Shown piece after piece: positions 2,874 to 33,555 of a stretch of DNA of 36,963 nucleotides. The stretch covers positions 1 through 36,963 of IMG/VR virus record IMGVR_UViG_3300021182_000130. One strand, 5' to 3'. Source of the DNA: a virus. Every line of letters begins with the position of its first letter. The stretch's first letter is position 1. A model generated the notes under the pieces. That model made no database searches. It saw only the letters and a list, made by a program, of their open reading frames with translations, and had not been told where the DNA came from. The position numbers and the translations under genes were made by a program.

Positions 2874-3764
2874 ATGTCTGTAGCTCGCGGCTTCGGCCTA
2901 AACGGTAAATCCTATTATACAAACGTAGCAGGTCCAAGAGATGTGAATTTGCAATTCACGGTTACCCCAACAAATGGCTTGGGTGTTACATCGGTAAAGA
3001 GCAATGGCTATGTGCGCAACGTTTTCATGCATACATCAACCACCCCTACCGCCAATGATGGATATACCAACCCAAATCCATTAGCTGGTTATGCGATAGT
3101 GCAATTTAAAAACAATTTTAACTATTATTTGAACGGTATAGCGCAATTTCAAGCGCCTAATACTACTTCAACGAGTATCGACAATAGCGCATTAACCGTC
3201 GGTCAGGTTTATGTGATTACTACTCTTGGCAATGCGTCGGCAGCAGTATGGACCGCAATCGGTGTGCCGGATGGCATCACTCCAGCCGTTGGTGTTTCTT
3301 TTGTAGCTTTAACAGTGGGCGCTGGTAGCAATACTCTAACATCTCGCGTAATGCTCCCAAGCACATCAGGTATCTATGGAGTGGAAGTAATTGGAACACC
3401 TAGCACGATGCTTGGCACAAGCAATATCGCATCCAATGGCGGTGCTTGGTTGAGTCTCCAGTTCCTAGTTCCAACATTTACCGGCTCAGCATTGGGAACT
3501 CATACTCATAACTTACTTCTAAAGAATGCTGCTGTAGCGGACGGAGCCACGACAAGGGTAAATGCCGGTGCTAACCTTTTAGGCGCCAATACAGGCAGTG
3601 ATATAACTGTTACAGGTAGTGGTGCAAATGGCGGGATTGTAGCAGTAAGTGCTGGCACACCAGCTGGTACCTTGGCTTTAGGTGTTGCGGCTCCAGCAAC
3701 AGGTACAGTTATCAATATGAAATTCAGCTTTGACGGATCAAGTGTAACAATCGACGGCATCTAG
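2874..3764 (+). CDS. Structural protein, probably head decoration or fibre-type
   Basis: A 296-residue Gly/Ala/Thr/Asn-rich protein without charged helices, downstream of the capsid gene. Residues about 100-160 (NSALTVGQVYVITTLGNAS...WTAIGVPDGITPAVGVSFVA) match a beta-rich module I know from many phage structural and fibre proteins. The C-terminal 100 residues are low-complexity Ala/Gly/Thr. GGAG precedes ATG by 7 bases. The leader contains a predicted pseudoknot, so translation of this gene may be controlled. The exact place in the virion cannot be read from sequence. Confidence 0.6.
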   Translation: MSVARGFGLNGKSYYTNVAGPRDVNLQFTVTPTNGLGVTSVKSNGYVRNVFMHTSTTPTANDGYTNPNPLAGYAIVQFKNNFNYYLNGIAQFQAPNTTSTSIDNSALTVGQVYVITTLGNASAAVWTAIGVPDGITPAVGVSFVALTVGAGSNTLTSRVMLPSTSGIYGVEVIGTPSTMLGTSNIASNGGAWLSLQFLVPTFTGSALGTHTHNLLLKNAAVADGATTRVNAGANLLGANTGSDITVTGSGANGGIVAVSAGTPAGTLALGVAAPATGTVINMKFSFDGSSVTIDGI

Positions 3765-4821: not shown

Positions 4822-5111
4822 TGGCTCAGCTCAGCACAAAATTACCTCTTGAGCTGATGCAAACCAAATGGGCATCAACCCTCAATCCGCTTCTTTCGAT
4901 GCCTATATTAAACGGAAATCTAATCAGCAACATCACTCTTGCTGCCACAACGCCTCTAGCAATCAACCATCTGCTTGGCCGTAGTCCTATAGGTTGGTTT
5001 CTCACAGATAACACAGCAGCGGCATCGGTTTGGCGCTCGGTAGCATTCAATCAATATACGTTGACTCTAGAAGCAAGTGCCGCAACAACAATTTCCTTTT
5101 GGGTATTCTAA
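4821..5111 (+). CDS. Small structural protein of the neck or tail
   Basis: A 96-residue protein whose ATG overlaps the adaptor stop (TAATG); its own stop overlaps the next gene the same way. The start at 4821 is preferred to an upstream in-frame codon because of this coupling. Residues NPLLSMPILNGNLISNITLAATTPLAINHLLGR form a short beta-rich module found in short-tailed and T7-like fibre-region proteins. It lies between adaptor and fibre, so a neck or tail part is likely. No catalytic motif. Confidence 0.55.
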   Translation: MAQLSTKLPLELMQTKWASTLNPLLSMPILNGNLISNITLAATTPLAINHLLGRSPIGWFLTDNTAAASVWRSVAFNQYTLTLEASAATTISFWVF

Positions 5112-6268
5112 TGGCAAATACAACTCTTAGCCCTTATATGAGCATGCCAATTCCCACAGTGGGTACAGATCCAGGTCCGGATTGGGCAACTAATATAAAT
5201 GCATCGCTTTCAATTGTAGATCAGCATTCTCACATTCCAGGAGCTGGTGTTGCAGTAACTCCAGCTGGTCTTAATATCAATATAGATCTGCCATTTGGCG
5301 GAAATAATGCCACTAATCTGAGAACAACAAGATTTACATCTCAAACGGCCGCCCTATCAGCATCAGCGGATGTGGGATGCCTTTATGAAGTATTAAACGA
5401 TCTATATTTCAATGATGGTGTAGGTAATCAAATCAGGATTACTCAAGGCGGTGCGGTTTCCGGTGCCTCGGGAACGATTACCGGTCTACCGAGTGGTACA
5501 GCATCAGCATCCTATTCAGCATCTACATTCACATTCCAATCAGCAACCAGCACCCCTGCCACAATGGCAGTAGGACCTCTAGTTGTAGGTAACTCGGTAG
5601 CTAATAGCAAGAATGTAACGATAGCGCCCAATGCTTCTATAGCAGCCAATTATGCATTCACGCTACCGGCGGCGCTTCCAGCATCAGCAAATTATACTAC
5701 TTTAGACGCGTCGGGTAATTTCGGATACAACACATCTGGAAGCACAGGATCCGGCGCTGTAGTTCTTGGAACATCTCCGACTATTGCAACACCTACAGTC
5801 TCAGGTGGTACATTCTCATCGCCATCGATATCATCGCCTACTATTTCGGCGCCTACGATGACGGGACTTACAACAGTAAGCGCGAGTGGCATTGCTTTTA
5901 CATCAGGTACATTACTTGACTTTGTGGAAGGAACTTGGACGCCGACGTTTGCAAACATTTCTAATACTAGTGGTTGGTCAACGACATCGAAATTTTATCA
6001 AAGAATTAGCAATACGATTTATGGAAGTATACAAGTAGCGTTTACATGCTCGTCGACAACAGGTTCCTTCTCAATATCGTTACCAGTAACCCCTGATAAT
6101 AACTTTGCTGGAGTTCAGTTTCTATCATATGGCGGCAATTTGGGAACAGCTTCTGGTAGCACCTTTTCAACCGCAACAAGTGCTAAGTTGCTGACTGTCT
6201 CTGCTACGGTTCCAGGATCAGGACCGTTTACAGTGCGATTTGGATTTCAATATATAAAAAATAACTAG
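5111..6268 (+). CDS. Tail fibre-like protein
   Basis: 385 residues from ATG 5111, coupled to the previous stop (TAATG). The N-terminal 60 residues (PIPTVGTDPGPDWATNINASLSIVDQHSHIPGAG) are the conserved start of many phage fibre proteins. Low-complexity Ser/Thr/Ala/Gly repeats follow, including the PTISSPTISAPTM-type stretch near 235-260 seen in trimeric fibre shafts, then a C-terminal beta domain (EGTWTPTFAN ... FGFQYIKNN) that resembles a receptor-binding or trimerisation tip. It likely recognises the host surface. Confidence 0.7.
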   Translation: MANTTLSPYMSMPIPTVGTDPGPDWATNINASLSIVDQHSHIPGAGVAVTPAGLNINIDLPFGGNNATNLRTTRFTSQTAALSASADVGCLYEVLNDLYFNDGVGNQIRITQGGAVSGASGTITGLPSGTASASYSASTFTFQSATSTPATMAVGPLVVGNSVANSKNVTIAPNASIAANYAFTLPAALPASANYTTLDASGNFGYNTSGSTGSGAVVLGTSPTIATPTVSGGTFSSPSISSPTISAPTMTGLTTVSASGIAFTSGTLLDFVEGTWTPTFANISNTSGWSTTSKFYQRISNTIYGSIQVAFTCSSTTGSFSISLPVTPDNNFAGVQFLSYGGNLGTASGSTFSTATSAKLLTVSATVPGSGPFTVRFGFQYIKNN

Positions 6269-6275
6269 AGTATAT

Positions 6276-9200
6276 ATGTTAGTCAAAGAAGCCATTGATA
6301 TCAGTTTCGCTCAGGGTCTTGATACAAAGACAGATCCTAAGCGCGTCGCCATGGGTAACTTCGTCAATCTAGAGAACTCCGTTTTCACCAAAAGCGGTCT
6401 TCTTCAGAAGCGAAACGGGTATGAGCAACTCGTATCTTTACCAGATACATCAAGCACTTATGTAACGACATTCAATGAAAATCTCACGGCAGTGGGAACG
6501 AGCATAGCGGCCTATAATGCAACAAATGATAGTTGGGTGACAAAAGGCTCAATTCAGCCTTTGAGCTTAAATACCTTAGCTTTGCTTAGAAATAATCTAA
6601 ATCAGACGGCTTGTGATTCAGCCATTTCCCCAAATGGTCTAGTATGTACTGCTTATCTGGAACAAAACGGTGGATCGACAGTCAATAAATATGTGGTAGC
6701 AGACGCAACAACGGGCCAAAATATAACCGCACCTGCTCTTATTCCCGTAGCATCAGGGACCGTATCGGGTGGAATGCGTGTTTTTATCCTCGGCAATAAT
6801 TTTGTAATTTTATTTACAAATACAATAACGGGAACTGCGCATCTTCAATATATCACCATCAATACTGCTAATCCCGCCACGGTTGGCGCAAATACCGATA
6901 TAGCATCAGCCTATATAACTGCTACGACATTGTCATGGGATGCCTATGTCGTAAATGATTTACTTTTTATTGCATACAACACAACTACCGGTGGCCAAAG
7001 TATCAAAGTAACGAGCTTAACAAATACATTAGCCTTGAACGCCGCTAAGACATTTAGTGGTTATAAAGCAACGATGATGAGTGTCACCGCTGATATGACC
7101 AACTCATCTAGTCCCGTGATCTATGTGAGCTTTTATAGATTAGATACCACGGTAGGATTTACTCTAGCTGTGGATCAGAATTTAAATACTTTAATGAATC
7201 CAGTGAAGATCATAGCTTCCGGAACAATCTTAAACATAACCTCAGTCGCCCAAAGCGGGACTTGCAAAATATTCTATGAAGTATCGAATGCCTATTCATT
7301 TGATTCTGGGATTCCAACCAATTTCATCAACTCAGTAAGTGTCACCCCTCTTTTAACGAGCTTTAGTTCCGTTTTTAGCTCTGGTGCTGGCACAATTACG
7401 GCTAGTAGTGCGACAGGTTTAGTAAATGGTATGTATCTAATCGATAATACCAACACAGCAAATATTGCAGCAGGTACTACATTTACTATTTCAGGCACTA
7501 CTTTGACACTGTCGGCCAATACAACGGGGAATTCGGCTAGTAGCCCCGGTGATTCAATGACAGCGGCGACACTTTCGGCAGTTACTACAATAATTAGAAG
7601 CGTAGGTTTAGCATCCAAGGCTTTCATAATAGATCGCGTAATCTATTTTCTTTCGGCCTTTTCAAGCCCGTACCAACCAACATACTTTTTGATTAACGGC
7701 TCAAGAAGCTTGTCATCAGCTCCGGTCATAACGGCTAAATTAGCATATGAAAATGGCGGCGGTTATTTAACAACTGGATTGCCAGGCATTACAATTACTA
7801 ATAGCACGATTGCTCAAATACCCTATCTCTATAAAGATCTGATTCAGGCAGTAAACAAAAATACTGCTGTACCAGCTGGCACCCAAGTAAACGGCATCTA
7901 TTCCCAAACCGGAGTCAACCTAGCTACTTTTACCTTCGGTACAGCAGGTCTTAATAGTGCGGAAATCGGTCTTGATTTACACCTCACCGGTGGATTCCTT
8001 TGGATGTATGATGGCTATCTACCTGTGGAGCACAATTTCTTTCTTTGGGCGGATACTGACCAAGCCACCCCAGCCAATACGGCGACCTGGTCGGCCACCG
8101 GTGGAAGTATCGCGGCAAAACCCGATGGCGCAACAAATACGAATGCCTACTACGTAGTTTTTACGTATGAATGGACGGACAACAGCGGAAATGCTTTTAG
8201 ATCAGCTCCTTCCATTCCAATTCCGATTACGACTACAGGCGCTTTAAGCACTGGAAGCATAACCTATAATGTACCTACCCTACGGCTAACGTATAAGACA
8301 GCTAACCCTGTTAAGATCGTGGCCTATAGATGGTCGGTAGCCCAGCAAATCTATTATCAGACAACGAGTATTACAGCTCCAAGTCTTAATGATACTACGG
8401 TTGATTCAATTCAAATCGTCGATACTAATTCTGATGCAACGATCCTTGGAAACAATATCCTCTATACTACAGGTGGAGTTGTTGAAGATGTGAATGCACC
8501 GGCATCGGATCTAATCACTCTATTCGATACGAGACTTTGGTTAGTAGATTCCGAAGATAGAAATCTTCTCTGGTTTTCAAAGCAGGTTATCGAAAATACT
8601 CCTGTAGAGATGTCGGACCTATTCACTAAATTCATAGCACCTACGACAGCTGCCCAAGGCTCAACGGGTCCTATAACCGCGCTCTCGGTAATGGATGACA
8701 AGCTAATAATCTTTAAGAGAAATGCGATTTATTACATCAATGGTACGGGACCGGATAATACAGGGGCCAATGACCAATATAGCCAACCCATTTTTGTGAC
8801 CTCTACAGTAGGATGTGCCAATCAGAAGAGTATCGTCTTTATGCCTATGGGGCTCATGTTCCAGAGTGATAAAGGCATCTGGCTTCTTGGTAGGGATCTT
8901 CAGACAAGCTATATAGGTGCCCCAGTAGAACGATATAATGATGGACTGGTAGAATCGGCTCAGAATATACCTCGTACTAATCAAGTGCGGTTTATTCTTA
9001 ATACCGGCGTTACGCTAATGTTTGACTATTTCTACAGCCAATGGGGCACGTTCAAAGGTGTACCGGCTATCAGTTCTTGTATCTTTGATGAGCTACACAC
9101 ATTCATCAATACCTATGGTCAGGTATTTAGAGAATTGCCAGGAAGCTATCTTGATGGATCTAGCCCCGTTTTAATGTCCTTTACCACGGGTCCATTGAGA

Positions 9201-9602
9201 CTAGGCGCTCTACAAAACTACCAAAGAGCTTATTTCTTCTATATTTTGGGAACATATAAATCCCCCCATAAGCTTTTGTGCAGTATCTCCTACGACTATA
9301 GCGATTCGCCAAGTCAAAATGTGTTGCTCTTACCTGATAACTATTCAACTCCATACGGCTCAGGCCTTTCACAGAGTCCATATGGCCAGGGTAATCCTTA
9401 TGGAGGACCTGGTAATCTAGAAAATTTTAGAGTTTTCTTTGAAAAGCAAAGATGCCAAGCATTTGCGATAACAGTTCGAGAAGTATTTGATAGCACTTTT
9501 GGAGTAGCGGCCGGCGAAGGGTTATCTATGAGTGGTTTGAATGTTGTATGCGGTTTCAAACAGAAATTTGCGCCGATATCATCAGCGAAGAGTTTTGGTT
9601 AG
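6276..9602 (+). CDS. Tail nozzle / stabilisation protein (gp10/gp12-type)
   Basis: At 1108 residues this is the longest protein of the genome. The N-terminus has the pattern FAQGLDTKTDPKRVAMG and NFVNLENSVFTKSGLLQKRNGY (residues 10-50), characteristic of tail nozzle proteins of short-tailed phages (P22 gp10 and T7 gp12 types). Residues 330-440 contain a Ser/Thr-rich insert resembling a surface domain. The second half (residues 740-960) keeps the beta-propeller-like wording LITLFDTRLWLVDSEDRNLLWFSK and LSVMDDKLIIFKRNAIYYINGTG. P22 gp10 is about half this size, so this is an enlarged version. It would form the hexameric tail tip. Confidence 0.65.
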   Translation: MLVKEAIDISFAQGLDTKTDPKRVAMGNFVNLENSVFTKSGLLQKRNGYEQLVSLPDTSSTYVTTFNENLTAVGTSIAAYNATNDSWVTKGSIQPLSLNTLALLRNNLNQTACDSAISPNGLVCTAYLEQNGGSTVNKYVVADATTGQNITAPALIPVASGTVSGGMRVFILGNNFVILFTNTITGTAHLQYITINTANPATVGANTDIASAYITATTLSWDAYVVNDLLFIAYNTTTGGQSIKVTSLTNTLALNAAKTFSGYKATMMSVTADMTNSSSPVIYVSFYRLDTTVGFTLAVDQNLNTLMNPVKIIASGTILNITSVAQSGTCKIFYEVSNAYSFDSGIPTNFINSVSVTPLLTSFSSVFSSGAGTITASSATGLVNGMYLIDNTNTANIAAGTTFTISGTTLTLSANTTGNSASSPGDSMTAATLSAVTTIIRSVGLASKAFIIDRVIYFLSAFSSPYQPTYFLINGSRSLSSAPVITAKLAYENGGGYLTTGLPGITITNSTIAQIPYLYKDLIQAVNKNTAVPAGTQVNGIYSQTGVNLATFTFGTAGLNSAEIGLDLHLTGGFLWMYDGYLPVEHNFFLWADTDQATPANTATWSATGGSIAAKPDGATNTNAYYVVFTYEWTDNSGNAFRSAPSIPIPITTTGALSTGSITYNVPTLRLTYKTANPVKIVAYRWSVAQQIYYQTTSITAPSLNDTTVDSIQIVDTNSDATILGNNILYTTGGVVEDVNAPASDLITLFDTRLWLVDSEDRNLLWFSKQVIENTPVEMSDLFTKFIAPTTAAQGSTGPITALSVMDDKLIIFKRNAIYYINGTGPDNTGANDQYSQPIFVTSTVGCANQKSIVFMPMGLMFQSDKGIWLLGRDLQTSYIGAPVERYNDGLVESAQNIPRTNQVRFILNTGVTLMFDYFYSQWGTFKGVPAISSCIFDELHTFINTYGQVFRELPGSYLDGSSPVLMSFTTGPLRLGALQNYQRAYFFYILGTYKSPHKLLCSISYDYSDSPSQNVLLLPDNYSTPYGSGLSQSPYGQGNPYGGPGNLENFRVFFEKQRCQAFAITVREVFDSTFGVAAGEGLSMSGLNVVCGFKQKFAPISSAKSFG

Positions 9603-19224: not shown

Positions 19225-19657
19225 TTTAGCACATGGAATAGCGGATAAGTTCGATATTGATCCACAGCTTGTTAGTGCCATAATTGAAGTAGAATCTAGC
19301 TGGAAACCAGCCGCTACAAGATTCGAGCCAGCGTTTTACTATTTAGTTCGCCTTCCGCATTTTGCAACGGCTTGTAAGATCCCGTTTAAAGACGAAGAAA
19401 CGGCCCAGAAGACATCCTGGGGCTTGATGCAGATAATGGGAGCCACAGCTAGAGGATTAGGATTCCAGGGCCTCTTGCCTACGCTAGTCGATCCTGCGTT
19501 GGGGATAGAATATGGCTGTAGATATCTCGCTGCTTTAGTACGGAGATATCCCAAACTCGAAGACCACATCTCAGCCTATAATGCGGGACATCCTAACTGG
19601 GAGCATCCAGGGGGGAATGCTAAATATGTGGATAAGGTCCTAGCGGCATATATTTAA
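19202..19657 (+). CDS. Endolysin, lytic transglycosylase (SLT) type
   Basis: 151 residues from ATG 19202, with AAGGA 6 bases before; an upstream in-frame TTG at 19190 is less likely. The soluble lytic transglycosylase pattern is clear: catalytic Glu in EVESSW (Glu31), SWGLMQIM near residues 72-79, GIEYGCRYLAALVRRY, and YNAG near 129. It cleaves the glycan strand of peptidoglycan. There is no signal peptide, so it needs a holin or other export. The last four bases overlap the end of a small convergent gene. Confidence 0.85.
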   Translation: MTDAKLIDLAHGIADKFDIDPQLVSAIIEVESSWKPAATRFEPAFYYLVRLPHFATACKIPFKDEETAQKTSWGLMQIMGATARGLGFQGLLPTLVDPALGIEYGCRYLAALVRRYPKLEDHISAYNAGHPNWEHPGGNAKYVDKVLAAYI

Positions 19658-19743
19658 TCTAAAAATAGATCAACTAGCATTACAAAGGGAAATAGCATCC
19701 AATAGACTATAGTGCCGATAAAGGTTTTGATTCGTGAAATCAT
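19654..19743 (-). CDS. 29-residue single-span membrane peptide
   Basis: ATG at 19743 overlaps the stop of the preceding early gene (ATGA), and the ORF ends inside the tail of the convergent endolysin. The peptide is MISRIKTFIGTIVYWMLFPF followed by VMLVDLFLD: one basic residue pair, then about 20 hydrophobic residues, a plausible membrane anchor. It is the last gene of the left early operon. Function unknown; an antiholin or membrane-acting early peptide are possibilities only. Confidence 0.5.
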   Translation of the reverse strand: MISRIKTFIGTIVYWMLFPFVMLVDLFLD

Positions 19744-20084
19744 TTTGGAAGTACCTCGACGATAACTAAATTGCCATTGCCGCTTTGAGGCCTTCCATCT
19801 TTTTTATATCGAGATATCGTAGTTTCATAATTGAAACCATCTGATTCATTTGGGTCATAACATTCTAAAATTCTAATGACTCCATTCCTCAACCTAACTT
19901 TCCTACCCACCATTTCGGGAGTTAGCTTGATCTCGGGCTTTGGCTCTTCGTATAGTTCCCATTCGATGTCATCGCGGAAAAGAGTAACATAGGTATCGAT
20001 TTCACCATCCAGTTTAAAAGTATCACCACCTGATTTATAGGCTGATTTAACTTTCGCTACGGACGTTACTGTATGATTAATCAA
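19740..20084 (-). CDS. Early protein of unknown function, open part downstream of an amber codon
   Basis: The open frame from TTG 20084 gives 114 residues, but no ribosome site precedes this TTG and the frame is open, apart from one TAG, back to ATG 20168. The N-terminal part (continuing from LDGKKIRQPHWPPNAFWELI upstream, through DIEWELYEEP) resembles the small DUF2829-type domain that includes the Thoeris inhibitor Tad2; this is a tentative resemblance. The C-terminal 55 residues (MVGRKVRLRNGVIRILECYDP ... DGRPQ ... VIVEVL) form a second small beta domain common in phage hypothetical proteins. It lies in the left early operon. Confidence 0.5.
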   Translation of the reverse strand: MINHTVTSVAKVKSAYKSGGDTFKLDGEIDTYVTLFRDDIEWELYEEPKPEIKLTPEMVGRKVRLRNGVIRILECYDPNESDGFNYETTISRYKKDGRPQSGNGNLVIVEVLPK

Positions 20085-20168
20085 TTCCCAAAACGCGTTA
20101 GGTGGCCAATGTGGCTGCCTAATCTTCTTCCCATCAAGCTATGCCTGGAATCTCTCAATTGGTTTCAT
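20085..20168 (-). pseudogene. Severed 5' end of the 19740 gene, in-frame TAG at codon 10
   Basis: From ATG 20168, which overlaps the end of the gene before it, the frame reads MKPIERFQA, TAG (20139-20141), LDGKKIRQPHWPPNAFWEL, then the open part. The residues after the stop still look like coding sequence, so the gene was one 142-codon unit. The related pattern F-x-x-A-L-L-D-G-K-K-I suggests the stop replaced a Leu codon (TTG to TAG). Other genes here end normally at TAG, so general TAG recoding is excluded. Confidence 0.6.
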
Positions 20169-20343
20169 TTTTAAGTTCATCCTTCAACTTGGACAATAAG
20201 CCTCTCACGAATCCACAGCGATATAGGATATTATTCACGTCGATCTTTGCTAATTCAGATCTATTAAAATTCATCGTCATTAAATAGATTTCATCTAAAT
20301 GGGCTTTCATCTCTTCGAGAATTTGTTCAATCGGTTTCATCAT
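20155..20343 (-). CDS. Small helical early protein
   Basis: 62 residues, helical and charged (IEQILEEMKAHLDEIYLMTMNFNRSELAKIDVNNILYRCGFVRGLLSKLKDELKN). Its double ATG lies inside the end of the preceding gene (17-base overlap), and its own end overlaps the next start by 14 bases. The two junctions have almost the same sequence (AAAAATGATGAAACCGATTG and AAAAATGAAACCAATTGA), so the junction was duplicated. Function unknown. Confidence 0.6.
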   Translation of the reverse strand: MMKPIEQILEEMKAHLDEIYLMTMNFNRSELAKIDVNNILYRCGFVRGLLSKLKDELKNETN

Positions 20344-22416: not shown

Positions 22417-22597
22417 CAGGGACATCCCATATCAAAAGTGCTGAGAAATAAGTAGAGCCGCAATCGTGATCATAATAAGCGGAATATTGAATCTCGCAAT
22501 CAACTTTAAAGTCACTTTTTATCTCGCCAATCATCATATTAAGTCTCTTTATCAAGAGATCAGATTCTTTCGCCTCAATTAAAGTAGTTCTCTTCAC
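22409..22597 (-). CDS. Small early protein of unknown function
   Basis: 62 residues from GTG 22597, immediately after the TAG of the previous gene, with GGAG 7 bases upstream. A polar helix (IEAKESDLLIKRLNMMIGEIKSDF) is followed by a beta-looking end (CEIQYSAYYDHDCGSTYFSALLIWDVPDE). The junction GGAGATTTAGGTGA is the same as at the start of the gene before it. No known family. Confidence 0.6.
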   Translation of the reverse strand: MKRTTLIEAKESDLLIKRLNMMIGEIKSDFKVDCEIQYSAYYDHDCGSTYFSALLIWDVPDE

Positions 22598-22780
22598 CTA
22601 AATCTCCCTTTGATTTTTCTTTCGAAAATTTGCCAGGGGGTCCATAAAGCTTAAAGATGGATATTCTTTAAGAGCTTCTACCCAAAGGACATTTGCTCGC
22701 TTAAATCCATGACACAAACCACCTGCATAACCCAGCGTAAATGCCGCCATCGGTATAACGATATATAATATTTCACTCAC
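22598..22780 (-). CDS. Small membrane-anchored early protein
   Basis: 60 residues from GTG 22780, which overlaps the RuvC stop (GTGA). Residues 3-25 (EILYIVIPMAAFTLGYAGGLCHG) form one hydrophobic segment with a Gly-rich end, then a basic polar tail (KRANVLWVEALKEYPSLSFMDPLANFRKKNQREI). Likely a single-span inner membrane protein with the tail in the cytoplasm. Function unknown. Confidence 0.6.
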   Translation of the reverse strand: MSEILYIVIPMAAFTLGYAGGLCHGFKRANVLWVEALKEYPSLSFMDPLANFRKKNQREI

Positions 22781-23538: not shown

Positions 23539-24000
23539 CCGACGTATGATCACTAACTATCGAACAGGAAGGGAGCCGAAGGAATATTTACAATAAGGGG
23601 AGTTAGGGAGCAAGGGGAAACGTGATGAGGTAGGTCGCGACTCCTACCTACAGCCATATCTTGCATCTATCCGGCTTTACGGCCTGTCTGCTTCACTGTC
23701 ACGTTGACCGGGCACGTCTCTAGGGCTATCGGCTTGCTAATTCCGACAAAGTTTATTGCTCGCAGGCAACCCTGCTTCCCGTGCTGCTCATCACGTTTAC
23801 CAACTTTTATATTATTTCACATCTTTTTACAATCAGTTCAAATATCTAATTTTGGTAGAGTTTCTATTCCGGGTGCGGTAGAAGGGGGTATTAAATATCG
23901 AGCCCCTTAAGTGACGCTAACCACTGTAAGAGGCTCTACCGAACGACCACTAGTACTGGTGTCCGATGTGCTTTAGATACACTACATCCCCCGAAAAAGT
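23539..24000 (-). ncRNA. Candidate large structured non-coding RNA
   Basis: This stretch has no gene. A 12-pair helix, AAACGTGATGAG (23618-23629) with CTCATCACGTTT (23787-23798), closes a domain of about 180 nt. Inside are hairpins GGTAGG/CCTACC (loop with TCGCGA), GCAGG/CCTGC (23762-23775), and on the minus strand TTGTCGG/CCGATAG (23749-23743 with 23732-23726), the last with two G-U pairs that are mismatches on the plus strand; GCACG/CGTGC closes a subdomain. Upstream lies a four-way junction (23854-23940) and downstream a minus-strand terminator. No known RNA class was recognised. Confidence 0.6.
23854..23940 (-). other. Cloverleaf-like four-way junction, part of the ncRNA region
   Basis: GGTAGAG (23854-23860) pairs with CTCTACC (23934-23940). 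Between them are three arms: TCTA-tt-CC with GG-TAGA (23863-23882), AGGGG with CCCCT (23883-23907), and AGTG with CACT (23910-23925). The layout recalls a tRNA cloverleaf, but no T-loop, D-loop or anticodon arm fits on either strand. Confidence 0.5.
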
Positions 24001-27196: not shown

Positions 27197-27721
27197 ATGG
27201 ACCCCAAAAAAGCAAAAGCAATTCATCTGAGCGCTTATCTCTATGCGCTAAAACGTGGCTCTTGGCCAGGTAGTCAAGTCGATGCTGACGACTTTGCCCA
27301 AGAGGTAGTCCTCTATGCTCTAGAGAATGACGAGATGGTCGGTCATCTGAGGCACCGCTATTCAGATTTTCTAAGATCCCAATATGGGAGAGTCTCGCCA
27401 ACCGGGGTAGGAACAAAGAGTCAAAAAGGGAAAAAAGCGATGACGCTAAAAGCTCTTGACCTCAGTGAGAAAGTGGTAAGGTGTAACCGTCCTAATCCTG
27501 AGAATCTAGCTGACATGCTGTTCATCGATAAATACTTTAGGACAATCCCGCCGGTTAACAGAATCGCATTTGTACTGCATCACAAGTATGGATATAACTT
27601 GGTTGAAATAGCGGAGATGTGTGGCTTAACTGAGGCACGCATTAGTCAGATAGTGACTGAGACGAAGAGAAGAGTGCTGAATAACGTTAACGGGATACGG
27701 CGGGTACCCACACGTAAATAG
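27197..27721 (+). CDS. Phage RNA polymerase sigma factor
   Basis: 174 residues. Residues 25-65 fit sigma region 2 (SQVDADDFAQEVVLYALEND ... LRHRYSDFLRSQYG), though shorter than usual. Residues 115-165 fit region 4 (IPPVNRIAFVLHHKYGYNLVEIAEMCGLTEARISQIVTETKRRVL), with a clear helix-turn-helix (VEIAEMCGLTEARISQIV). Region 3 is missing and the linker (65-110) is basic, as in ECF-type or phage late sigma factors. It would direct host polymerase to late genes. No ribosome site is visible before ATG 27197. A 41-bp repeat covers its last codons. Confidence 0.7.
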   Translation: MDPKKAKAIHLSAYLYALKRGSWPGSQVDADDFAQEVVLYALENDEMVGHLRHRYSDFLRSQYGRVSPTGVGTKSQKGKKAMTLKALDLSEKVVRCNRPNPENLADMLFIDKYFRTIPPVNRIAFVLHHKYGYNLVEIAEMCGLTEARISQIVTETKRRVLNNVNGIRRVPTRK

Positions 27722-27743
27722 CATGCCCATTATCGATAACAAG
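27703..27743. repeat. 41-bp direct repeat, copy 1
   Basis: Begins with GGTACCCACACGTAAATAGC and ends with TTATCGATAACAAG; 40 of 41 bases equal 28446-28486. It covers the stop of the sigma gene. Its minus strand reads LVIDNGHAIYVWVP, the C-terminal residues of the 28433 gene, so it looks like a copied end of that gene. Confidence 0.9.
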
Positions 27744-28432: not shown

Positions 28433-28783
28433 CTATGATAGCTTTGGTACCCACACGTAAATAGCATGCCCGTTATCGATAACAAGGCGACCTTTATGTG
28501 TTTTCTTATTGATATCGACTCCTTGGAGTCCATGCATATTGATCAGATCTTCTCTACTTATCCCAAGGATTTCAGCAGCATCCCCGGCAGTAATCAGGCA
28601 TTTACGGATCTTCATCCATCGGCGTAGGTCTCGAATAGAATATGTATAAAGGGGCTCGCCATTGCGTCCCATCTTCTTACAGAACGGCGGACCGCTCTTA
28701 ATCGAGGTAGTTTCCCTTGCTCGCATACGGACTAATAGGAATTCAGGAATACCAGTAAATTCAGCTGCTTGTATTGTGTTCAT
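28433..28783 (-). CDS. Double-HTH regulatory protein
   Basis: 116 residues. Residues 1-60 (MNTIQAAEFTGIPEFLLVRM ... GPPFCKKM ... PLYTYSIRDLRRWMKIRK) follow the excisionase-like pattern with HTH, the GPPF wing and a closing helix. Residues 60-95 (CLITAGDAAEILGISREDLINMHGL) add a second HTH. The end (RLVIDNGHAIYVWVP) is the part duplicated at 27703-27743. It is transcribed toward the small HTH gene 28240 from a divergent control region and is a good candidate for the genetic switch. Confidence 0.7.
   Translation of the reverse strand: MNTIQAAEFTGIPEFLLVRMRARETTSIKSGPPFCKKMGRNGEPLYTYSIRDLRRWMKIRKCLITAGDAAEILGISREDLINMHGLQGVDINKKTHKGRLVIDNGHAIYVWVPKLS
28446..28486. repeat. 41-bp direct repeat, copy 2
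   Basis: Copy 2 lies in the 3' end of the minus-strand HTH gene and contains the 12-bp palindrome GTTATCGATAAC. The two copies bracket 702 bases with the 27902 and 28240 genes. Confidence 0.9.
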
Positions 28784-31855: not shown

Positions 31856-32068
31856 ATGTGTGAAAGCTTAATAGAGATTTCATCTCTGGATGAAAAGAAT
31901 AACGAAGATTTTTTTGATCCCATAATCATTGAAGCAATAACCATCAAATGGGATAAATGGGATATATTTTTAAAAAAAATAAATCGTGCATCTTCATGCG
32001 AAGAAGATATTTATCTGTATACAGCTTTTGGAAAAATAAAGATTAATCGGGGGGTCCCGACTAAATAA
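31856..32068 (+). CDS. Small protein of unknown function before terL
   Basis: 70 residues, AGGA before ATG, stop overlapping the terL start (TAATG). Acidic and more AT-rich than its neighbours (ISSLDEKNNEDFFDPIIIEAITIKWDKWDIFLKKINRASSCEEDIYLYTAFGKIKINRG), which suggests a later insertion. No family recognised. Confidence 0.5.
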   Translation: MCESLIEISSLDEKNNEDFFDPIIIEAITIKWDKWDIFLKKINRASSCEEDIYLYTAFGKIKINRGVPTK

Positions 32069-33555
32069 TGGAAATAGAGCCACGACTCGTCCTAGAGGAG
32101 TTAGCCCGCCGAAAACTAGCGCGGTTGAATATTCCCAACGTTCTAGCGCATGCCTTTTCTAATCAAGTGGACTTTATTCGTGATCCATCTACGCAAAAGG
32201 TTCTGTTCTGCACACGGCGAAGTGCCAAGTCATTCACGGCTGGTCTATATCTGGTCCAACAAGCTCTTCAAAATCCAGGATGCAACTGTCTCTTTCTAGG
32301 TCTTACTCGCGCGTCTGCTAAGGCGATCATCTGGAAAGACATCCTTAACATCATCAACACCAAGTATTCATTGGGTGCCAGCTTCAATCAGACTGAACTG
32401 ACAATGACATTCCCCAATGGTTCAGTTATCGCGGTTACTGGGGTGGATGTCGATGAATCAGAGATGAACAAGCTGTTGGGTAGGAAATACCGCCTTGTCT
32501 GTATCGATGAAGCTTCCATGTATACGATCAATGTCAGCAATCTAGTCTATGGGGTCCTCGGTCCGGCGATGGTCGATCCTAATGATGGAGCTGAGTCAGG
32601 TACAATATGTTTAATGGGGACTGCTTCCAACTTTCCTAGGGGTCTATTCTACGATATTACGACAGGGAGAGAACGTGGGTGGAAGCTATTTGAGTGGACG
32701 GCGCATGATAACCCATTTGTGGCTAAGCAATGGGCTATGGCACTTGAGAAGATCAAGGCGGAACGTCCCTTATATATGCAGACGCCGCAATATAAGCAAT
32801 GGTATCTCAATCAGTGGGTGGTAGATGAAGAGAAGCTAGTCTATAAGTTCGATACCGCCAAGAATCTGACAAAGACTGTACCGCACCTACCACATGACGG
32901 ATGGACATATACTCTAGGTGTAGATACTGGCTGGGAAGATGATTCAGCTTTCGTCCTTACTGCCTATCATGTGAATAATCCCTATCTCTATATTCTTAAG
33001 AGCTTTTCCAAACCTAAGATGACTTTTGACGAAGTAGCCGGGAAGATCCAAGAATTTATGAGGGATTCTAGCTGTGCTCCGCACCGAGTCATAATCGATG
33101 GCGCTAACAAGCAAGGCGTGGAGTCGATGCGCTTTAGATCCGCTATTCCTTTCGAATATGCTGACAAACAAGACAAGGTAACATTCATCGAGCTATGCAA
33201 TTCGGATCTTATCCAGGGCAGAATCCTAGTCGTCGATTCGGAGGATAATAGGCCTCTATGGGAAGAGATGGCATCGCTGATCTGGGTGACCGATGGTGAT
33301 GTGATAAAATATCCAAAAAAGGAAAATCCATCTCTCTCCAATCACCTTTGTGATGCTTTCCTCTATGCTTGGCGGTGCGGTTATCACTATGCCTCAGTCA
33401 AAGCCGAGAAAAAGATAGCAGTAGGATCTAGGGAGTGGCATCAGAAGCAATCCGAAGATACTCAAGCTCTTTGGGAATCTGAAAGGGATAGACTCCTGGA
33501 GATGCATGACGGTAGTCAATGGCCGTCTGAAGGCACTCTAGGGGATTTGGGATAG
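32068..33555 (+). CDS. terL: Large terminase subunit (packaging ATPase and nuclease)
   Basis: 495 residues. ATPase: Walker A-like CTRRSAKSFT (residues 48-57), Walker B LVCIDEAS (143-150, Asp147 and Glu148), coupling motif MGTAS (183-187). Nuclease: GVDTGWEDDSAF (Asp286), VIIDGAN (Asp344) and HLCDAFLYAWR (Asp429), the three acids of the RNase H-like fold. The size is normal for short-tailed phages. It drives DNA into the procapsid through the portal encoded about 1.7 kb downstream and cuts the concatemer. The start overlaps the previous stop. Confidence 0.92.
   Translation: MEIEPRLVLEELARRKLARLNIPNVLAHAFSNQVDFIRDPSTQKVLFCTRRSAKSFTAGLYLVQQALQNPGCNCLFLGLTRASAKAIIWKDILNIINTKYSLGASFNQTELTMTFPNGSVIAVTGVDVDESEMNKLLGRKYRLVCIDEASMYTINVSNLVYGVLGPAMVDPNDGAESGTICLMGTASNFPRGLFYDITTGRERGWKLFEWTAHDNPFVAKQWAMALEKIKAERPLYMQTPQYKQWYLNQWVVDEEKLVYKFDTAKNLTKTVPHLPHDGWTYTLGVDTGWEDDSAFVLTAYHVNNPYLYILKSFSKPKMTFDEVAGKIQEFMRDSSCAPHRVIIDGANKQGVESMRFRSAIPFEYADKQDKVTFIELCNSDLIQGRILVVDSEDNRPLWEEMASLIWVTDGDVIKYPKKENPSLSNHLCDAFLYAWRCGYHYASVKAEKKIAVGSREWHQKQSEDTQALWESERDRLLEMHDGSQWPSEGTLGDLG

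Follow-up and report, generated by a model that had tools for sequence, protein, structure and literature searches.

We describe a Tad2-like accessory gene of an uncultured phage that is interrupted once, by an in-frame amber codon close to its start. The window, the whole stretch of 36,963 nucleotides that was analysed, corresponds to the complete virus record IMGVR_UViG_3300021182_000130. On its minus strand, the frame running from 20168 to 19740 comprises 142 codons and contains a single in-frame TAG as codon 10 (20139-20141). The explanation that we favour, although it carries only about half of our belief, is that this stop is a real and very young nonsense allele.

The interrupted frame and its start signals

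The initial annotation had reported a gene cut by one amber codon at 19740-20168, and we confirmed both the coordinates and the 132 open codons behind the TAG. The ATG and codons 1-9 occupy 20142-20168, and the open remainder, closed by a TGA at 19742-19740, occupies 19740-20138. Over the same stretch, stops number 7 and 17 in the other two sense frames and 7, 6 and 13 in those of the antisense strand. Among 20,000 mononucleotide shuffles a frame as long stayed open once, and among 20,000 dinucleotide-Markov sequences four times. Moreover, the codon score of the frame (0.157) groups with the genes of the window (0.197 +/- 0.116 in frame) and not with off-frame readings (-0.114 +/- 0.107). The 18 codons from the TAG to the TTG at 20084 scored 0.074, which is uninformative by itself, and another frame scores above them.

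As had been claimed, the ATG at 20168 is placed and coupled like a real start. It overlaps an upstream minus-strand ORF of 62 aa (20155-20343) by 14 nt and is preceded, at a spacing of 10 nt, by a Shine-Dalgarno-like stretch on the same strand (20179-20186; energy -6.2). This energy is equalled or bettered by 14 of 37 genes and is thus of ordinary strength. The upstream ORF starts with (M)MKPIE, and the neighbouring ORFs from 20343 and 20168 both open with MKPIE, encoded by similar DNA; this shared start may reflect chance or a copied start region. At its other end the interrupted gene is joined by an ATGA overlap to a hydrophobic minus-strand ORF of 29 aa (19657-19743).

The open part behind the TAG lacks a proper start, again in agreement with the first description. 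The first standard in-frame start past the TAG is the TTG of codon 29 (20082-20084, minus strand), which has no Shine-Dalgarno sequence (energy -0.9, with 35 of 37 genes equal or better), and none was found for the ATG at 19913 either. The TTG of codon 93 has a Shine-Dalgarno match of -6.4, but is located far into the C-terminal part. The only conceivable restart path is an out-of-frame minus-strand mini-ORF of 17 codons that begins with a weak start signal at ATG 20134 and whose TGA overlaps the TTG at 20084 (20081-20134).

Resemblance of the encoded protein to Tad2

The read-through protein gave nothing at the usual limits in Pfam, NCBIfam and PHROGs, and the Pfam Tad2-like model PF11195 matched neither this protein nor the window at E values up to 10. 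When E values up to 10 were allowed, the read-through protein matched only one plasmid and five phage records, which belong to three phages. A protein of Lactobacillus phage Semele matched residues 1-29 (E 3), and phrog_6670 matched residues 1-45 onto its own residues 1-45 (E 0.13), a match that was gone once codons 1-10 were dropped. Semele-type proteins are members of phrog_6670. Their own N-terminal Tad2-like matches are weak to borderline, the Semele proteins scoring 18.3-25.1 bits against PF11195 at a cut-off of 25. A match of the second domain to gp51 of Synechococcus phage S-CBWM1 was followed as well and gave no lead.

Residues 1-30 are similar to the Tad2-like N-terminus of the Lactobacillus phage proteins. 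With six of these, the frame aligns without gaps from Met1 across the TAG to residue 22, and M1, E5, L11 and G13 are invariant across all seven sequences. The Tad2-like N-terminal motif, consisting of these four residues and a following basic/aromatic stretch, is thereby present at a fixed spacing from Met1, and codons 1-9 fall on Met1 and helix 1 of the Tad2-like phage proteins. This alignment supports the earlier proposal that codons 1-9 and the remainder belong to one protein.

In searches with a home-made profile of 19 phage proteins, which excluded the window's own, the frame ranked first of 1076 six-frame segments with an E value of 0.0018 (next segment 1.1), and a profile of the seven Semele-type Lactobacillus phage proteins alone gave 4.7e-5; since the profile family was picked after the first weak match, these E values are flattering. 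The frame came second with a profile of eight proteins whose phages infect Enterobacterales (E 0.32, about tied with an unrelated segment) and with one of twelve non-Semele-type proteins (E 0.52), and it was not among the best with four Tybeckvirinae proteins. Profiles without the Lactobacillus family thus fail to single out the frame. When codons 1-9 were masked, the score fell by 1.4-6.1 bits for four of the five home-made profiles and stayed the same for the remaining one, to which the frame gives no match. Starting at the TTG at 20084, and thereby dropping residues 1-28, abolished the Tad2-like match.

An alignment-free fold prediction was useless (pLDDT 32.9). The model built from the seven sequences reached a pLDDT of 61 overall and of about 80 for residues 1-30, and its predicted first helix (residues 3-11) holds the stop. 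With this model, Tad2 structures were the best six of ten listed by VIA-align (Z 3.0-3.4 over residues 1-74; next Z 2.6), whereby the input alignment already held Tad2-like sequences. Foldseek found nothing significant with the same model (E 3.3 or worse), and the best BFVD entries were Lactobacillus phage proteins of the kind already in the model's alignment. A profile of alignment A2 against the PDB ranked SPO1 Tad2 second and third (E 0.14-0.16). Residues 11-74 of the open remainder would accordingly form the Tad2-like part, and residues from about 79 to 142 a second small, beta-rich domain with a weak Tudor/SH3-like resemblance (Z 2.2-2.6, faint, against Tudor-type barrels).

Taken by resemblance, the protein appears weakly Tad2-like; it is not filed in PF11195, and membership is not proven. 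Similar to Tad2 (SPO1 gp34.65, ModTad2; PF11195), its N-terminal 74 residues align from Met1 in the predicted model. In contrast to Tad2, it has 142 instead of about 90 residues, an extra C-terminal domain and no Pfam match, and it is interrupted. With the two-part Tad2-like proteins of Lactobacillus phages Semele and Iacchus it shares the N-terminal motif, the Met-to-GK spacing and a second small domain. However, identity to these proteins is 17-29%, and they occur uninterrupted as several tandem paralogues per genome in a different phage type.

The phage and the distribution of the gene

The record carries a 55-base direct repeat at both ends and therefore is probably a circularly closed assembly. 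Its recognisable proteins comprise a terminase, a portal-like protein, ERF, SSB, a RuvC-like protein and a replication-initiation protein, and the interrupted gene is located at the end of the minus-strand recombination-gene cluster (ERF, SSB, RuvC). The terminase (32068-33555) is 43-76% identical to 36 of the 37 uncultured virus loci found, 100% identical to that of a sibling record and only about 24-25% identical to the annotated phages that ranked best. Judged from these terminase identities, the phage belongs to an uncultured phage group. Between the RuvC-side genes and the replication gene lies a non-coding stretch of about 500 bases, in which a 15-base inverted repeat encloses 157 nt (23615-23801, minus strand); no Rfam match was obtained there and the folding energy is not unusual (z -0.42). 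A 41-base direct repeat (27703-27743 and 28446-28486) is 98% identical at a spacing of 743 bases.

An intact copy of the gene in relatives, for which the initial annotation had proposed a search, was not found. The read-through protein gave no match in viral_contigs, in phages at E 0.01 or in genome_contigs, an exact 27-mer from behind the TAG gave nothing in viral_contigs, and the gene was found in none of 39 related virus records (21 and 18); the only intact relatives are distant. Across 34 stretches of 22 related records, tblastn and the home-made profiles reached at best 8.7 bits among 10,562 segments, compared with 19.3 for this frame under the same profile, and the Pfam Tad2-like model found nothing in 21 related records. 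The ERF gene was visible, and the recombination cluster thus surely reached, in only 7 of the 22 fetched records, so that absence is well tested in few. In the best-matching record, G003, this gene is absent, RuvC coming immediately after the homologue of the ORF located two upstream. Since it was not found in the 39 related records, the gene looks accessory. Relatives sharing the stop together with a conserved downstream start, which would have spoken against an interrupted gene, were also looked for and not found, because no gene-carrying relative was found at all.

Origin and consequences of the amber codon

According to the explanation that we favour, the recombination-gene cluster of this podovirus-like phage would end with an accessory gene encoding a two-part protein, the first half of which resembles Tad2, a phage sponge binding immune signal nucleotides. 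The TAG at residue 10, inside the predicted first helix, would halt translation after nine residues. Because a good start just downstream is absent as well, the sequenced haplotype would yield no functional protein. The nonsense change would be real and very young, and its loss of function tolerated, either since the phage can do without the gene in its current host or since loss of the sponge may help where the host guards against sponges. In Tad2, helix 1 is where the homotetramer that sequesters gcADPR is interlocked (PMC12043709), and the stop described here falls within the first helix of the predicted model.

Ranked close behind is an artefact of sequencing, amplification or assembly, to which we assign about a one-in-three chance; the natural phage would then carry an intact gene. 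The sibling record comprises 22,804 bases, of which 19,581 were aligned with 5 mismatches (99.97% identical), and it ends inside ERF, so that the gene is not covered. The two records differ only at 56, 4601, 32836, 33063 and 35371. All five differences change an amino acid, which has a probability of 0.26 under random substitution, as for unselected changes, and would be rare under ordinary strain variation with purifying selection. Three of these sites have a clear consensus among the relatives. The window is the deviant record at position 56, where the residue of the sibling is shared by 18 of 21 aligned stretches; at 32836 and 4601 it is the sibling that deviates, the window residue being found in 21 of 22 and 18 of 18 stretches, respectively. 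Since all differences change an amino acid and each record departs from the consensus, unselected single-base deviations, be they artefacts or newborn mutations, are present in the records of this phage. A random coding substitution creates a nonsense codon in about 3.9% of cases. However, the sole deviation of the window is found beside the terminal overlap of 55 bases, where end errors are likely, and is therefore a weak guide to the amber codon, which is located mid-contig. When the window was scanned for further broken genes by tblastn with ORFs of the relatives, the result was swamped by shadow frames, and no count was drawn from it. Of the options raised initially, a recent pseudogene and a base error thus both stand and are not separable.

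A natural premature stop has been described in acb2 (orf24) of the podophage PaMx41, which a no-stop mutation removes in a CBASS-resistant mutant (PMC10419184, PMC12657218). As in PaMx41, we found in a podovirus-like phage a small putative anti-defence gene of the nucleotide-sponge type, as far as the resemblance to Tad2 holds, that is intact apart from one in-frame stop. In contrast to this Pseudomonas phage, the gene described here would belong to another sponge family; CBASS resistance of the no-stop mutant is described for PaMx41 only. For the Panoptes system, T4 escape mutants were reported to have lost Acb2, the mutations of 14 of 15 escapers lying in acb2 only, and slight activation was seen with one Tad2 protein among four (PMC12657218). 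The amber codon could be a real, standing loss-of-function allele of a nucleotide-sponge gene, a reversible off state kept in the wild population because the sponge is of use on hosts with Thoeris or CBASS but is punished by decoys such as Panoptes. We regard this as rather unlikely.

Still less probable is that the host or the phage reads the amber codon through, by a suppressor tRNA, a leaky context or programmed readthrough, yielding the full 142-residue protein, perhaps at a low level. The part downstream of the TAG is intact, and widespread in-frame stops were reported for bacterial genes that evolve under purifying selection, among which those of phages and transposons are over-represented (PMC7918605). 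However, TAG is a true stop elsewhere in this phage, as had been noted at the outset. In a set of 48 genes, 10 end in TAG, 21 in TAA and 17 in TGA, and for the TAG-ended terminase and the genes at 1212-2519, 2874-3764, 5030-6268 and 6276-9602 the orthologue ends at the same residue or within six. At least 50 open codons follow the stop at 2 of 10 TAG, 6 of 21 TAA and none of 17 TGA ends, so that open sequence is no commoner behind TAG than behind TAA. The window contains no tRNA gene and thus encodes no suppressor tRNA, and none was detected in 34 stretches of related records, where the tRNAs were Asn, Gln and Met only. A tRNA-Asn(GTT) gene is carried by 9 of these stretches (L035, L037, L038, L100, L101, L104, L106, L107 and L110), some of them also with Gln or Met tRNAs. 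A host search through the terminase in genome_contigs gave no relative, and the RNA fold around the TAG is not unusual (z 0.48). With amber-recoded phages, in which TAG encodes an amino acid, this phage shares an in-frame TAG in a phage gene, but here one gene is concerned and TAG is a working terminator elsewhere; neither TAG inside several conserved genes nor an own suppressor tRNA was found. A changed genetic code is therefore not indicated, and host suppression, the third option of the initial annotation, is unsupported. At 22595-22600, a same-frame GTG start with a strong Shine-Dalgarno sequence (-9.0) follows immediately after a TAG; this junction of stop and start is ordinary, although it might be taken for readthrough.

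That a shorter product begins past the TAG, at TTG 20084 or, for the second domain alone, at ATG 19913, with codons 1-9 being incidental, is the least probable reading of all. The mini-ORF offers a possible restart chain and the second domain could stand alone, but both starts lack a Shine-Dalgarno sequence and the Tad2-like match runs unbroken across the TAG and needs residues 1-28.

If the stop is an artefact, it illustrates how a deviation of one base may pass for a pseudogene in phage records from metagenomes. In either case, the frame points to a putative two-part Tad2-like protein in uncultured podovirus-like phages, none being detected in the relatives examined. A standing off-state allele, if true, would add to the natural example of PaMx41 acb2 one from another sponge family. 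Should the stop be real, it would give another instance of a wild phage whose anti-defence-like gene is switched off by one codon, with a bearing on the frequency of trade-offs in phages between counter-defence genes and the systems that sense them.
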